Source: Bacilli bacterium
GTDB taxonomy: Bacteria > Bacillota_I > Bacilli_A > RF39 > UBA660
NCBI GenBank assembly: GCA_017459965.1
Contig: JAFUBW010000014.1
Span: 139,984 to 199,173, forward strand
DNA: 59,190 bases
Direction of reading: 5' to 3'
Part shown: positions 1-14,980 of the stretch, in pieces
Numbering within the stretch: position 1 is the first letter of the stretch
How the letters are laid out: every line of letters starts with the position of its first letter
Translations under genes and position numbers: made by a program
The notes under the pieces: model-generated
Told to the model about the DNA's origin: nothing
Database searches by the model: none
The model's input: only the letters and a program-made list of their open reading frames with translations

Positions 1-101
1 TTTTATATTTTAAAACTGATAGAGTAAAAGATTATCGAAAATTTAAAGTTTTTGTTGTTAGAGTTGTATCTATTAATTCTGAATACATAGATATGGAATA
101 A
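1..101 (+). CDS. C-terminal fragment of an unidentified protein
   Basis: An open frame enters from the left edge (first full codon at base 3) and stops with TAA at 99-101, giving 32 residues that end in SEYIDME. The fragment is rich in Lys, Arg and Val and has no motif I recognise. The next gene begins three bases after this stop, so it probably belongs to the same operon as the recombinase module that follows. It could be the tail of another element gene, but identity needs the sequence to the left. Confidence 0.5.
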   Translation, partial: LYFKTDRVKDYRKFKVFVVRVVSINSEYIDME

Positions 102-104
102 ATT

Positions 105-311
105 GTGAAAAAATTTAAAATTCTTATTAATAATAATGAAGAAAATATCAAATTGGAATTAAATGATACAAATTCAGACAAAATAGATGATTTAGTAAAA
201 AAATCTTATTATCTTTATCAATTAGATAATTTATACAAATTAAAATTAATAAATGAAACTATATATAATAATATTAAAAATATTTTAACTGAAAATCGCA
301 CATTTATATAA
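105..311 (+). CDS. Small SHOCT-like protein upstream of a serine recombinase
   Basis: This 68-residue protein starts with GTG three bases after the preceding stop. Its N-terminal half is Asn/Glu-rich. The C-terminal half (about residues 35-62) reads as a short helical hairpin with the pattern LDNLYKLKLINETIYNNIKNIL, which resembles SHOCT domains (a Leu-x-x-Leu helix, then a turn, then a second helix). Small SHOCT-type proteins are commonly encoded just before large serine recombinases in clostridial integrative elements, and this one lies 61 bp before such a gene. The role of these proteins is not established. The domain call is by eye; the association with the recombinase is firmer than the fold. 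Confidence 0.5.
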   Translation: MKKFKILINNNEENIKLELNDTNSDKIDDLVKKSYYLYQLDNLYKLKLINETIYNNIKNILTENRTFI

Positions 312-372
312 ATTTTTAATAATTGTTATTATTTTGTTGTATTATTAACAATTTATTAAGGAGGCTTTAAAA

Positions 373-2055
373 ATGAGTGTAGTAGAAATAATAGAAGCAA
401 CACCAAGGAATGTTTTAAATATACAAGGTGTTTTAGAAAAAGTAAAAAAAAGGGTCTGTGCCTATTGTAGAGTAAGTACTGATATGGAAGATCAAATATC
501 TAGTTATAATTCTCAAATAATTCATTATTCAAATGTGATAAAAAGTAATCCCGATTGGATATTTGTTGGAATTTATGCAGATGAAGGTATTACAGGAACT
601 CAAACTAAAAAAAGAGTTGAATTTTTACGAATGATTGAGGATTGTAAAAGAGGAAAAATAGATATGATAATTGCAAAATCAATTTCGCGTTTTGCAAGAA
701 ATACAGTTGATACATTAAAATATGTGAGAATGTTAAAAGGATTAGGAATTGATATTTATTTTGAAAAAGAAAATATTCATACACTGGATATGAATAACGA
801 ATTATTATTAACTTTATTTAGTGCGTTTGCGCAAGGTGAAAGTGAATCGACATCAGAAAATGTAAAATTAGGTTATAGAGCTAAAATGAAGCGTGGAGAA
901 CCATGTGGTACGATAGCTTGTTATGGATTTATATGGGATAAAATAAATAAAGAAATTCTTATTAATGAAAAGGAAGCAGCGGTAGTTAGAAAAATATTTG
1001 ATTTGTATTTAAAAGGATTTGGATCAACTATAATTTGTAAAAAATTAAATGAAGAAGGAATTCCTAGTCCAAAAGGTGGAAATAAATGGTATCCATCAGT
1101 TATAAAAACTATGTTGCGAAATGAGAAATATGTTGGTGACTTATGTGGACAAAAATCGTATATTTTAGATCCTATTACACATAAACAAAAAAAGAATAGA
1201 GGTGAGAAAACCAAGTATTATGTAAAGGAACATCACGCTGGTATTATTTCAAGAGAAATATATGATAAAGCACAAGATATATATAACAAAAGAAGTATTA
1301 AATTAAAAGATGGTGAAGAATATTGTGAAAAATTTAGTATGAGATATACATATAGTAGTAAAATAAAGTGTGGTAATTGTGGTAGTAATTTTAAAAGAAG
1401 AATTACTCATTATGTAAATAAACTTGGTGAAAAGCATTCATATGTATATTGGATATGTTCATGTAAAAATGATGATAAAAATAAATGTGATGATAGAATA
1501 TCAATTAGGCAAGAAGAATTAGACTCTCTTTTTATAGAATTATTTAATAAAGTAAAGAAACAATATGATAATAATTTTCTTTACAAAAAAATATCAGAAT
1601 ATATTAATAATTATAATAAAAATAATGATATTGATACATATAAGAAAAAGATAAGCGAAATAAATGATAAAATATCTCGATTAATTGATATAAAATTATC
1701 AAACAATATAGATGAAATGTCTTTTAATAATAAATATAAAGAATTAAAAAAACAATTAGAAGAATACGAAATAAGCATTAATAAAGTGTCAATATCAGAC
1801 AATAATAGAGAATATCAGTTAGAACAATTAAATAAAATTGAACAAATATTAAATAATACGAAGATTAAAAAATTTAATGATAATGTGTTTAAAAATATGG
1901 TAAATCATATTATAATTGGAGGTAAGGAAGATAATAAGTATAATCCAGCTTTAGTTAGATTTGTTTTTAATATTGATCCATTAAATTTAGATGTTTCAAA
2001 CAGCAAAACCTTTTTTCCCTCAGAGTCTCCTAACAGGTTACACAAGACCTTTTAG
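373..2055 (+). CDS. Large serine recombinase (site-specific integrase/excisionase)
   Basis: This 560-residue protein has the full large-serine-recombinase layout. The N-terminal resolvase catalytic domain (about 27-175) carries the nucleophile Ser35 in YCRVST and the SRFARNT motif. A recombinase DNA-binding domain follows (about 195-300), then a zinc ribbon (CGNCGS near 335 and a CSCK...NKC pair), a coiled coil rich in Lys/Asn/Ile, and a C-terminal tail. Such enzymes integrate and excise elements by cutting both strands at short att sites through a phosphoserine link. The length is normal and all visible catalytic motifs are intact. The start has a strong AAGGAGG site. The family is the one found in integrative conjugative elements of gut Bacillota. 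The last ~20 codons (PSESPNRLHKTF end) are less AT-rich than the rest and may read across an attachment site. Only this end of the element is in the window. Confidence 0.95.
   Translation: MSVVEIIEATPRNVLNIQGVLEKVKKRVCAYCRVSTDMEDQISSYNSQIIHYSNVIKSNPDWIFVGIYADEGITGTQTKKRVEFLRMIEDCKRGKIDMIIAKSISRFARNTVDTLKYVRMLKGLGIDIYFEKENIHTLDMNNELLLTLFSAFAQGESESTSENVKLGYRAKMKRGEPCGTIACYGFIWDKINKEILINEKEAAVVRKIFDLYLKGFGSTIICKKLNEEGIPSPKGGNKWYPSVIKTMLRNEKYVGDLCGQKSYILDPITHKQKKNRGEKTKYYVKEHHAGIISREIYDKAQDIYNKRSIKLKDGEEYCEKFSMRYTYSSKIKCGNCGSNFKRRITHYVNKLGEKHSYVYWICSCKNDDKNKCDDRISIRQEELDSLFIELFNKVKKQYDNNFLYKKISEYINNYNKNNDIDTYKKKISEINDKISRLIDIKLSNNIDEMSFNNKYKELKKQLEEYEISINKVSISDNNREYQLEQLNKIEQILNNTKIKKFNDNVFKNMVNHIIIGGKEDNKYNPALVRFVFNIDPLNLDVSNSKTFFPSESPNRLHKTF
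2008..2053 (+). other. Candidate attachment-site region at the recombinase 3' end
   Basis: The sequence between two direct copies of ACCTTTT (2008-2014 and 2047-2053) is visibly richer in G and C than everything around it and lies in the last codons of the recombinase. Large serine recombinases often sit next to one att site. This is only a positional and compositional guess; the other end of the element is not in the window. Confidence 0.25.
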
Positions 2056-2092
2056 GTGTAGATAATAATAAATAATAATTAAGGAGGTAAAA

Positions 2093-2254
2093 ATGAAACA
2101 ATTAGATGAAAAACAAATGAAGCAAATATCTGCTGGCGCAATAAATGGTACATTATTGAATGCTATTTTAAGAGGTGTAAATGTATTTATTGATGCTGGA
2201 AGAAATTTTGGTTCTGCTATTAGAAGATTAACTTCAAGAAATTTATGTAGATAA
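2093..2254 (+). CDS. Bacteriocin-like prepeptide with a double-glycine-type (AG) leader
   Basis: This 53-residue ORF has a near-perfect AAGGAGGT ribosome site 5 bases before ATG and its own strong terminator, so it looks expressed. Residues 1-15 (MKQLDEKQMKQISAG) fit the double-glycine leader register: Leu at -12, Met at -7, Ile at -4, and Ala-Gly at -2/-1 in place of Gly-Gly. Processing after Gly15 would release a 38-residue peptide that is cationic (six Arg, one Asp), amphipathic, contains a GxxxG motif (GRNFG) and ends in Cys-Arg. These traits are typical of class II bacteriocins or peptide pheromones exported by peptidase-containing ABC transporters. No such transporter, modification enzyme or obvious immunity gene is in the window. 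Assignment is by leader pattern only; target and activity are unknown. Confidence 0.65.
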   Translation: MKQLDEKQMKQISAGAINGTLLNAILRGVNVFIDAGRNFGSAIRRLTSRNLCR

Positions 2255-2263
2255 ATTTTGAAG

Positions 2264-2289
2264 GGAACTGTATATAGTTCCTTTTTTTT
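2264..2289 (+). terminator. Intrinsic terminator after the prepeptide
   Basis: A GGAACT/AGTTCC stem (2264-2269 with 2276-2281) and a 6-base loop are followed by eight T residues. It isolates the prepeptide gene from the next promoter. Confidence 0.9.
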
Positions 2290-2339: not shown

Positions 2340-2359
2340 ATAATTAAATGGAGGTAAAT

Positions 2360-3085
2360 ATGGAAAATAAAAAGAAAAATAACACTGCTGTAATAATAAT
2401 AGTTGTAGTATTAGCTATATTATTATTCTTTGTACTTGTAGGTTTTGGAGGTTATTATGTATATAATAAAGTAATTAAACCAACAACTACAGAAATTAAA
2501 GGTGATAATTCAACACCAACAACAAATGATTCAACATCAAGCAAATCAAATTCAACATCTAGTAAAGATGCAACAGCATCAACAAAAGAATCACCACTTG
2601 CAATAGGTGATTGGGGACTTGCTAGTAAATATGCAGGTAAGTATTTAGATGAAGAATATGCTGATAAAACTTATATTGATGTACCTGTTAGAGTTACTAA
2701 AGTTTCAAGAGGAGATAAAATAATAAACGAAGTAAAAAAATCTCTTGAAGAACATCATTATAAATATGAAGAACCAAAATCTTCACAATTAGAATGGGCT
2801 ATTGTTGAATATGAAGTAGATCTTTCTGATGTTAAATTTGGTGGATCACTTGGAACAAATATAAAAATTGATTCATCAGTAAAAGGTACAGATGGTGGAT
2901 CAGTTAAATATGATGGAATAACATATATTTTATCTACAGTTGACGCAAGTAGCAGTGATTATGTAAAAGAACCAGGCGTATATAAAGGTAAATTCTTAAC
3001 ACAATTACCTAAAGGATGCAGTGATTATTTAATTAAATTAGGTAATTCATATAATGGCGCTGAAAGTTATTTTAAAGGAGAATAA
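2360..3085 (+). CDS. Membrane-anchored protein with a DUF4352-like extracellular domain
   Basis: The chosen ATG (2360) follows a GGAGGT site; an ATG 12 bases upstream lacks one. The 241-residue product has a Lys-rich cytoplasmic start, one strongly hydrophobic segment (about residues 10-34), a Ser/Thr/Asn-rich linker (about 45-85) and a C-terminal beta-rich domain of about 150 residues. That arrangement and the pattern of the C-terminal domain resemble DUF4352 (telokin-like) proteins of Gram-positive bacteria, which sit outside the membrane and whose function is mostly unknown. There is no lipobox Cys, so it is an anchored protein rather than a lipoprotein. It has its own promoter and terminator. 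Its position after the prepeptide allows, but does not show, an immunity role. Confidence 0.6.
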   Translation: MENKKKNNTAVIIIVVVLAILLFFVLVGFGGYYVYNKVIKPTTTEIKGDNSTPTTNDSTSSKSNSTSSKDATASTKESPLAIGDWGLASKYAGKYLDEEYADKTYIDVPVRVTKVSRGDKIINEVKKSLEEHHYKYEEPKSSQLEWAIVEYEVDLSDVKFGGSLGTNIKIDSSVKGTDGGSVKYDGITYILSTVDASSSDYVKEPGVYKGKFLTQLPKGCSDYLIKLGNSYNGAESYFKGE

Positions 3086-3181: not shown

Positions 3182-3376
3182 GTGACAAAAGTTGTGGTAA
3201 AAAACGGAAATATTGATGGTGCTTTAAAAAGATTTAAACAAGCAGTAGCAAAATCTGGTATCCCTTCTGAATGTAAAAAAAGAGAACATTATTCTAAACC
3301 AGGAGTACAAAGAAGAGAAGCTAAAAAAGCTGGAATAAAAAATTCAAGAAAAAGACAAAGTAGAGATAGAGATTAA
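3182..3376 (+). CDS. rpsU: 30S ribosomal protein S21
   Basis: This is the small basic S21 protein of the 30S subunit, which lies near the 3' end of 16S rRNA and helps initiation complex formation. The 64 residues start TKVVVKNGNIDGALKRFK and end in an Arg/Lys-rich tail (KNSRKRQSRDRD), the usual S21 pattern. I chose the GTG at 3182 because it follows GGGAGG at normal spacing and gives the usual N-terminus; the upstream ATG (3161) would add residues before the ribosome site. It is followed by a terminator and then yqeY, as in B. subtilis. Confidence 0.95.
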   Translation: MTKVVVKNGNIDGALKRFKQAVAKSGIPSECKKREHYSKPGVQRREAKKAGIKNSRKRQSRDRD

Positions 3377-3907: not shown

Positions 3908-4150
3908 ATGAGAAATATAAGAGAATATATAAAAGATCCTAATTTTAAATTAACTATAATGAAAAATAAGATTGATATTCAAAATTATACTGATATAGAC
4001 TCAATATCAGATAATGAAATAATTATATTAATTAATGAAGAAAAAGTTATAATAAAAGGATATAAATTAAAAATAACAAAATTATTAAATAATGAGATGT
4101 TAATATTAGGAAACTATAATAATATTATTTTTGAAGGATTAAATGAATAG
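3908..4150 (+). CDS. yqfC: Sporulation protein YqfC
   Basis: This 80-residue protein matches YqfC, a small sporulation protein made in the mother cell under sigma-E in B. subtilis. The recognisable core is LTIMKNKIDIQNY, then EIIILINEEKVIIKGYKLKITKLLNNEMLILGNY, a compact beta-rich sequence. Start: ATG 3908 lies at proper distance from AAGGTG; an ATG nine bases upstream is too close. The gene overlaps yqfD by 8 bp and so is translationally coupled to it, exactly the B. subtilis pairing. A CATATAAT sequence at 3883-3890 resembles a sigma-E -10 box, but I could not find a matching -35. Confidence 0.85.
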   Translation: MRNIREYIKDPNFKLTIMKNKIDIQNYTDIDSISDNEIIILINEEKVIIKGYKLKITKLLNNEMLILGNYNNIIFEGLNE

Positions 4151-5294
4151 CTATTTAATAATTACTATTACAGGTAGAAATATAACGAGATTTTTACATA
4201 AATGTAGAGATAATAATATTAATATTTTACAAATTAGAAATATTTCTCATAAAAAAATAATTATAAAAATAAATCAAAATGATTATAATAAATTAAAAAG
4301 AATAAAATCATTTTATAAAATTGAAATAATTAATTCAGGTGGGTTATTAAAATATAAAGAGTTAATAAATAAAAATAAAATAATATTAATATGTTTATTT
4401 ATTGGATTAATTTTTTTAATATTACTATCAAATATTATTTTTGATATAAAAATAATTAGTAATAATTTAGAATTAAATAATAAAATAATTAAAGAATTAG
4501 ACTATTATGGTATAAAGAAATATAAATTTAAGAAAAATTATAATGAAATCCAAAAAATAAAAAGTACTTTATTAAATGATTTTAAAGATAATATTGAATG
4601 GCTTGAAATAACTGAAGTTGGTACTAAATATGAAGTGAAGATAGTAGAAAGAAAGAAAAAACAAAAGAAAGAAAACTATGAGTATTCTAATATAGTCGCA
4701 GGTAAATCAGGTATAATAAAAAAAATATATGCTGAAGATGGACAAAAAGTAGTAGACATAAATACATATGTAAATAAAGGCGATATTATAATAAGTGGCA
4801 CTATTATGAAAGGTGAAGAAGAAAAACAATATATAAATGCAAAAGGCAAAATTTATGCTGAAATATGGTATGATGTAACAATTGATTTCCCATTAAATTA
4901 TAGTGAAAAATTATATACTAATAATAAAGTAAAAAGATTATATATAAAATTAAATAATAAATATATATCTAATAATAAATATAAAAATTTTGAAAGAAAA
5001 ACTATTAAAAAATTAAAAAATAATATTGTTCCATTTGAATTAGGAATAGAAGAGGAAAAAGAAGTAAGAATAATAAATGATAGATACAGCTTAATAGAGG
5101 CTAAAAATAAAGCAATAGAAAAAGCAAAAGAAAAGATTTTACAAACTCTTGATAACGATGAGTATATAATAGATGAAAAAGTTTTGAATTTTAAACAAAA
5201 AAATAGTAAAATAGAATTAGAAATGTTTTTCTCGTGTTTAGAAGAAATATCAAAAAAAGAAACTTTTATACCAAATAATAAAAATAATGAATAA
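4143..5294 (+). CDS. yqfD: Sporulation protein YqfD
   Basis: This 383-residue protein corresponds to YqfD, a mother-cell membrane protein needed for efficient sporulation. It has an N-terminal cytoplasmic domain (about 1-75) with the opening IITITGRNITRFLHKCRDNNI, one hydrophobic segment (about 80-103), and a long extracytoplasmic part in which WLEITEVGTKYEVKIVERKK and NIVAGKSGIIKKIYAEDGQKVV are the family signatures. Length is typical. It overlaps yqfC and is followed 12 bases later by a VanZ-like gene where B. subtilis has phoH and yqfF. The exact biochemical role is unknown in the family. Confidence 0.88.
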   Translation: MNSYLIITITGRNITRFLHKCRDNNINILQIRNISHKKIIIKINQNDYNKLKRIKSFYKIEIINSGGLLKYKELINKNKIILICLFIGLIFLILLSNIIFDIKIISNNLELNNKIIKELDYYGIKKYKFKKNYNEIQKIKSTLLNDFKDNIEWLEITEVGTKYEVKIVERKKKQKKENYEYSNIVAGKSGIIKKIYAEDGQKVVDINTYVNKGDIIISGTIMKGEEEKQYINAKGKIYAEIWYDVTIDFPLNYSEKLYTNNKVKRLYIKLNNKYISNNKYKNFERKTIKKLKNNIVPFELGIEEEKEVRIINDRYSLIEAKNKAIEKAKEKILQTLDNDEYIIDEKVLNFKQKNSKIELEMFFSCLEEISKKETFIPNNKNNE

Positions 5295-13999: not shown

Positions 14000-14980
14000 A
14001 TGAAAATTAAAAAAATTTTTTTAATGCTTCTTATTACATTAATTAGTATACCAACAAATATATATGCTTATTCAAATAAAATAATACTTGGTGGAAATAA
14101 TATTGGTATAGAAGTTAAAACTAAAGGAATATTAGTCGTAGGTTTATATGAAATTGATAATGAAAGAGTAGCAGAATCTTCTGGTATTCAAGCAGGTGAT
14201 TATATTATAAGTGTCAACAATAATAATATAAATAGCATTTCTGATTTCACTAAAGAAATAGAAAATGATGATGATAAAAAATCTATTAATATAACATATA
14301 AAAGAAAGAATAAAACCTTTAATACAACATTAAATATAGTTGAAAAAGATGGTGAATATAAAACAGGTTTATATGTAAAAGATAAGATTAATGGTATTGG
14401 CACATTAACATTTATAGATCCACAAACAAAAAAATTTGGTGCGCTAGGACATGAAATTGTTACTAAAGAAACAAACGAAATATTAAATATAGATGATGGA
14501 TCAATATATTATTCATATATAACTGGCATTACAAAATCAAATAATGGTAATCCTGGTGAAAAAGAAGCTGATTATGACAATAATAAAAAATATGGAATAA
14601 TAAAAGAAAATACAAATAAAGGAATATTTGGGGATTATACAGATTCTATAAATAACGAAAACATGTATGAAGTAGCAAACCCACAAGAAATAAAAGAAGG
14701 AAGCGCAAGTTTATTTACTGTAATAGATGGTGAAAATTTAGAATCATTTGAAATACAAATCGAGAAACTAAATTTAAGAGATAACACTAAAAATATAGTA
14801 TTTAAAGTAACAGATGAAAAATTACTAAATAAAACAGGTGGTATAGTACAAGGAATGAGTGGCTCTCCAATAGTTCAAAACAATAAAATAATTGGTGCAG
14901 TTACACATGTAATTGTTAATGATTGTACAAGAGGATATGGTATATTCATAACAAACATGCTTGAAGAATCAGAAAATTAA
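14000..14980 (+). CDS. spoIVB: SpoIVB serine peptidase (sigma-K checkpoint)
   Basis: SpoIVB is a forespore-made S55 peptidase. After secretion into the intermembrane space it cleaves SpoIVFA, which releases SpoIVFB to process pro-sigma-K. The 326-residue protein has an N-terminal signal/anchor (about 1-25), a PDZ domain (about 45-115, with SGIQAGDYIISVNNN), and the peptidase domain with GALGHEIVTK (His151) and GMSGSPIVQNNKIIGAVTHVIVNDCTRGYGIFI-type sequence from about residue 285. The expected partners, spoIVFA and spoIVFB, lie at 44.9-46.2 kb in this window. B. subtilis has recN before and spo0A after spoIVB; both are missing here. Confidence 0.93.
   Translation: MKIKKIFLMLLITLISIPTNIYAYSNKIILGGNNIGIEVKTKGILVVGLYEIDNERVAESSGIQAGDYIISVNNNNINSISDFTKEIENDDDKKSINITYKRKNKTFNTTLNIVEKDGEYKTGLYVKDKINGIGTLTFIDPQTKKFGALGHEIVTKETNEILNIDDGSIYYSYITGITKSNNGNPGEKEADYDNNKKYGIIKENTNKGIFGDYTDSINNENMYEVANPQEIKEGSASLFTVIDGENLESFEIQIEKLNLRDNTKNIVFKVTDEKLLNKTGGIVQGMSGSPIVQNNKIIGAVTHVIVNDCTRGYGIFITNMLEESEN

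Follow-up and report, generated by a model that had tools for sequence, protein, structure and literature searches.

Bacteriocins are usually patchy, strain-level traits. Those of class IIb are defined by GxxxG or GxxxG-like motifs in both of their peptides (PMC6382864), and known two-peptide clusters comprise two precursors, an immunity protein, a transporter and an accessory protein (PMC6957408). The locus considered here shares much of this organization. It lies in a window of 59,190 nucleotides (the whole stretch of DNA analyzed, contig C20 139984-199173) in a 1.06-Mb assembly of 23 contigs, and its focus is a short precursor, peptide B (Table 1). Peptide B is probably one half of a class IIb-like two-peptide bacteriocin found across a whole family of bacteria and partly disabled in this genome by an integrated element. 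No description of the system, named A/B here after its two peptides, was found in the open-access literature.

The peptide B gene and its conservation

Re-reading of the sequence reproduces exactly the open reading frame, ribosome-binding site, terminator and leader register given by the first-pass annotation. The ribosome-binding site stands 5 bases 5' of the ATG, and the stop codon is followed by a terminator with the stem GGGAACTGTATATAGTTCC TTTTTTTT and a T-run. The leader, MKQLDEKQMKQISAG, has Leu at -12, Met at -7, Ile at -4, Ala at -2 and Gly at -1; it thus combines hydrophobic residues at -12, -7 and -4 with one of the pairs GG, GA or AG at -2 and -1, as expected for double-glycine leaders. 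A strict form of this motif fits one of the 123 window ORFs of 35-90 aa, peptide B, where residue shuffling expects 0.05. The predicted mature part agrees with its earlier description as a cationic 38-residue peptide with a GxxxG motif and a near-terminal Cys (net charge +5, G36xxxG40, Cys52). It is modeled as a single long helix with moderate confidence (pLDDT 73.5), a prediction that says little beyond helical character.

Table 1. Positions of the peptide B locus and the element end in the window
Feature	Position	Strand	Details
Right end of the 53.3-kb integrative conjugative element	1..2037	.	remainder left of the window
Large serine recombinase, likely integrase of the element	373..2055	+	560 aa; Resolvase PF00239, Recombinase PF07508, Zn ribbon PF13408
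Right element junction	2036..2037	.	GG common to both ends, likely crossover dinucleotide
Displaced 3' end of gene A	2036..2065	+	reads GYTRPFRCR-stop; cf. sister-species A C-terminus GYTRPYKCR
Peptide B ribosome-binding site	2081..2087	+	AAGGAGG
Peptide B precursor	2093..2254	+	53 aa; AG-type double-glycine leader 1-15, predicted mature part 16-53
Terminator 3' of peptide B	2263..2289	+	stem-loop and T-run; read by eye
rpsU (bS21)	3182..3376	+	sequence motif and synteny

Conservation of the frame and of its leader pattern in relatives, proposed at the outset as a check, is extensive. Profile searches recover peptide B from 357 of 386 family genomes and 144 of 150 genera, nearly always in single copy, a count in which a few weak matches could be peptide A, given the common leader. 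Most sampled genomes of this family contain a full-length relative; in other families of the class there were marginal matches at most. Among the named carriers are Candidatus Pelethosoma and Candidatus Faecisoma, which NCBI places in Mycoplasmatota incertae sedis; the family probably belongs to the GTDB order RF39. Four residues (G15, G36, G40 and C52) are invariant among 47 aligned peptide B sequences. Such statements on conservation rest on clean, separate alignments of A and B and on the comparison of both with protein C (see below), some profile models having mixed the two through the leader. The AG site and the single Cys had been called unusual; neither is odd among relatives, since several species of the genus share AG, GG being found in others, and the Cys is invariant in 47 of 47 aligned sequences. 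No relatives of the peptides were found on phages in two viral-contig scans, in which the peptide patterns covered part of the family only, and a single-protein scan of named genomes found nothing.

The partner peptide, the transporter and the operon of relatives

The checks proposed for peptide B also included a search of the full genome for a C39-peptidase ABC transporter (PCAT) and for paralogous prepeptides, and both were found, side by side. The sole PCAT of the genome sits about 53 kb before peptide B. Its domain order (C39 peptidase, membrane, ATPase) is that of the bacteriocin-type transporters modeled by TIGR01193 and NF045998, but its scores lie under both curated cut-offs (358 against 524 bits and 310 against 500 bits, respectively), and it is therefore a divergent member of the peptidase-containing ABC transporters. 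Only 10 bases behind it begins a second precursor, peptide A, with a 15-residue leader identical to that of peptide B. The two leaders differ in five codons, all synonymously, as expected if selection keeps the protein sequence of the leader. This pattern bears on whether peptide B could be a chance reading frame or a dead relic, for which its small size, and nothing more, would speak: synonymous differences alone, together with a full-length peptide in 144 genera with four invariant residues, make that reading hardly credible.

The leaders of A and B also covary. The two leaders are 53% identical when taken from one genome and 39% when taken from different ones, a difference reached in 0 of 10000 permutations; for the cores the values are 12% and 10%. 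The pattern fits a shared protease or, alternatively, gene conversion of the leader. Moreover, the transporter and peptide B tend to be present or absent together. Strong PCAT matches occur in 95 of 98 genomes, and the three that have no PCAT (G112, G124, G126) also have no B; by our own arithmetic, which ignores relatedness, the chance probability of this 3-of-3 overlap with five B-negative genomes is about 7e-5. The other two, G054 and G111, have a PCAT without B, in both cases near a contig end. Export of both peptides by the PCAT is a well-supported prediction, and the identity and covariation of the leaders point indirectly to their cleavage by its peptidase.

The usual gene order in relatives is PCAT, an accessory ORF that is often present (about 135-165 aa, no family match), A, B and, in many, a small membrane protein, C, commonly followed by rpsU and yqeY. 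A stands next to B in 72 of 75 named loci with both genes, usually at a distance of no more than about 50 bases; in the other three, further genes separate intact copies. Unrelated genes in this position (a methyltransferase-like ORF, NUDIX-like ORFs and a 357-aa ORF) occur at L166, L168 and L209. A candidate protein C occurs in 51 of the 75 named loci (52 flagged, L174 rejected). It stands downstream of B (e.g., L165, L166, L189) and has no double-glycine leader. Its tail resembles peptide B; the match is to the tail of B, with a profile score of 39.6 where shuffled columns reach 10.9 at most, and A shows no resemblance. Protein C could be the immunity protein in many relatives, perhaps by imitating B, and for so short an immunity protein CbnZ, of 42 residues, provides a precedent (PMC6957408). 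At the locus in the genus of the window, neither the accessory gene nor protein C was seen. Directly after B, window positions 2348-3085 encode a 245-aa protein with one N-terminal membrane helix, a Ser/Thr-rich linker and no clear family. Further on lies rpsU, and since this is the usual downstream neighbor of B in relatives, the B gene of the window is at its ancestral chromosomal site.

Insertions at one point of gene A

Large serine integrases can act inside a conserved gene, the comK prophages of Listeria being the familiar case. In sister species of the genus, PCAT, A and B are unbroken, and A, B and rpsU follow one another without an element. In the window genome gene A is normal up to Gly-Ile-Leu-Asp-Gly and then continues into foreign sequence (L002:10602 onward; contig position 88601 onward), and its displaced remnant ends 27 bases before B. 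The GG of the left junction is at G000:C20:88715-88716, 53.3 kb from that of the right. Nearly all genes of the insert lie on a single strand; they encode ParB, a pilin and sortase, a Toprim primase, a MobA-type relaxase, a coupling protein, PrgI, a TraG/VirB4-type ATPase and a CHAP hydrolase. At its end is the serine recombinase, whose last codons are host sequence overlapping the gene A remnant. With integrase, relaxase, coupling protein and secretion ATPase between att junctions, its gene content marks the insert as an integrative conjugative element (ICE). Among its cargo at G000:C20:123-138 kb (L132, L133) are a 1013-aa helicase bearing repeated HA domains, an M16-type peptidase and two large proteins that match no family. 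The window genome also has a second large serine recombinase, at G000:C17:24732-26324, which is 47% identical to that of the window.

Peptide B had been described as "carried by or next to" such an element. The proximity is real, but the gene is not carried: it is chromosomal, and the element has inserted into its partner. B is not cargo because the gene A remnant separates the element end from it and because sister species have A, B and rpsU alone. An assembly artefact or an ordinary rearrangement, in place of site-specific insertion, might be suspected in a fragmented assembly of 23 contigs. This is very improbable, since both element ends are on one contig and break at the same GG, each end matches one side of the sister-species gene A in frame, and the two enclose a full complement of conjugation genes with the serine recombinase last. 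The same codon is, furthermore, the point of insertion in a second single-contig case and in two partial ones.

These come from three other genera, where gene A is interrupted at the same Asp-Gly codons by prophages or their integrases. In G171 (L261, L267, L271, L272) a complete prophage of about 35 kb separates the two parts of A, all on the same contig. In G022 (L083, L084, L256-L258), A ends right after Asp-Gly with a serine recombinase abutting, and on another contig the A tail, reading GYVRPLRCN-stop, directly precedes B; terminase, capsid and other phage genes are present on the two contigs. The G022 integrase is convergent with A, belongs to a lineage that differs from that of the ICE integrase, and is 70% identical to the one of G171. 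In G286 (L260, L266) a truncated A lies at a contig end against an integrase with 69% identity, and B was not found. Although these integrases are about 70% identical, they are located at the B side in G171 and at the A side in G022 and G286. A search with the prophage integrase gave three matches at gene A or B, G022 itself included, and no relative of the ICE integrase was found beside B in a sample of 145 genomes. One further apparent split (G109) is a contig break and, to judge from match coordinates and the loci listed, so are four more (G009, G025, G050, G056). Every one of these insertions lies at the Asp-Gly codons, so that two lineages of integrase have arrived at the same conserved point of A, and each time A loses its conserved tail and Cys.

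Roles of the pair and comparison with described systems

Matches to family models point toward class IIb for some of the precursors. Of 45 A peptides, 35 match the NCBIfam model TIGR03949 (class IIb, lactobin A/cerein 7B) at E<=0.01; three A peptides were also scored individually, and all exceed its cut-off of 21.5. For B, 9 of 47 peptides match the lactococcin G-alpha model weakly, under the cut-off where one is shown; none of those tested singly was above a curated class IIb cut-off, and no model matched the B peptide of the window above cut-off. The cores of A and B without leader match no bacteriocin model, and the family-model matches thus depend on the leader. Two general features of the class are found in relatives, namely two different neighboring precursors (a pair split by the element in the window genome) and a GxxxG motif in each, which is invariant in B and conserved in A at >=90% (G34xxxG38), where G38 and C45 are invariant.

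The pair may instead consist of secreted signals, exported by the PCAT, sensed within the family and controlling a shared behavior. Near-universal conservation within one family suits a species-wide signal better than a weapon, and double-glycine leaders also occur on inducing peptides; there are weak NCBIfam matches of both window-genome precursors to the bacteriocin-induction factor EntF (E about 0.05) and of one A peptide to ComC. Against a signal stand the two distinct, co-conserved peptides with GxxxG motifs and hydrophobic or cationic mature parts of about 29-41 residues; no sensor kinase or response regulator was recognized by sequence inspection among the ORFs adjoining the pair in the loci read, and the best family-model matches are to class IIb bacteriocins. 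Signaling is accordingly an improbable role. The first-pass annotation had offered a class II bacteriocin or a signaling peptide; pairing, GxxxG motifs, family models and operon favor the former, and its single peptide gives way to a co-conserved pair.

Retention of the system in almost every genome of the family could also reflect a tool directed at the producers themselves, a factor in lysis, cannibalism or spore development, and not a weapon against competitors. In the window genome, the only one checked for this, the split operon is flanked by sporulation-type genes (L002:1088-6091; window 4143-5294 and 14000-14980), encoding a sigma factor, SpoIIIAH, GerE, a germane-domain protein, YqfD and a SpoIVB peptidase; this is a lead only. 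The order to which the family probably belongs, RF39, is predicted to sporulate (PMC10868615). Against this, the usual neighbors in relatives are rpsU and yqeY, sporulation neighbors being known from the window genome alone, and the operon contains the same set of genes as a two-peptide bacteriocin cluster, so that a self-directed function appears rather unlikely.

Pairing, GxxxG motifs, transporter, accessory ORF, candidate immunity protein and family-model matches together favor a class IIb-like bacteriocin, although near-universal, mostly single-copy conservation is unusual for one. For such a bacteriocin, one PCAT would cleave the matching leaders of A and B and export both. The mature peptides, predicted to be membrane-active helices, would pair through their GxxxG-type motifs, perhaps also through the invariant Cys, and would act on susceptible, probably related, bacteria, with protein C, through its B-like tail, as the likely immunity protein in many relatives. 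For the ICE, the conserved Asp-Gly codons of gene A served as attachment site; its insertion replaced the last residues of A, including the Cys, and stranded B 53 kb from the PCAT. The carrier would then probably keep B and the PCAT and make a defective A until the element excises. We regard killing by the pair, like immunity and reversibility, as inferred from sequence. A bolder form of the proposal is a long shot: a two-peptide bacteriocin as a core trait of the family, acting as a disulfide-linked A/B heterodimer, with C imitating B for immunity and gene A serving as a docking site of differing mobile elements that turn the system off on integration and on upon excision.

That exported peptide pairs can become part of core biology is suggested by a two-peptide system conserved in about 144 genera of uncultured gut bacteria with reduced genomes. 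The A/B set also offers concrete peptides to synthesize while these organisms await cultivation. One codon of A has been hit four times, each time in a different genus, by an ICE and by prophage elements, which shows that mobile elements repeatedly dock in the locus and damage it. The carriers live with a damaged A and can therefore survive without an intact one, yet the conservation of A implies that it is of benefit. If excision restores the pair, the element may be a switch for the system.

Compared with described systems, the locus shares with TIGR03949 and with lactococcin G/enterocin 1071 (NF038034, NF038035) two short double-glycine precursors, GxxxG-type motifs in both and a C39-peptidase transporter, and many relatives of the window genome add the accessory membrane ORF and small membrane protein of class IIb clusters. 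Unlike class IIb systems, A and B each have an invariant near-terminal Cys and are nearly universal in a whole family, usually fixed beside rpsU; their cores alone match no model, and protein C resembles peptide B itself. The insertion, in turn, is like those of serine-integrase ICEs and temperate phages in having the recombinase at one end, GG at both junctions and a conserved host gene that is interrupted with both its fragments kept. It differs from them in its target, the gene of a bacteriocin-like peptide, and in that the same codon is used by an ICE and by prophage elements in different genera.
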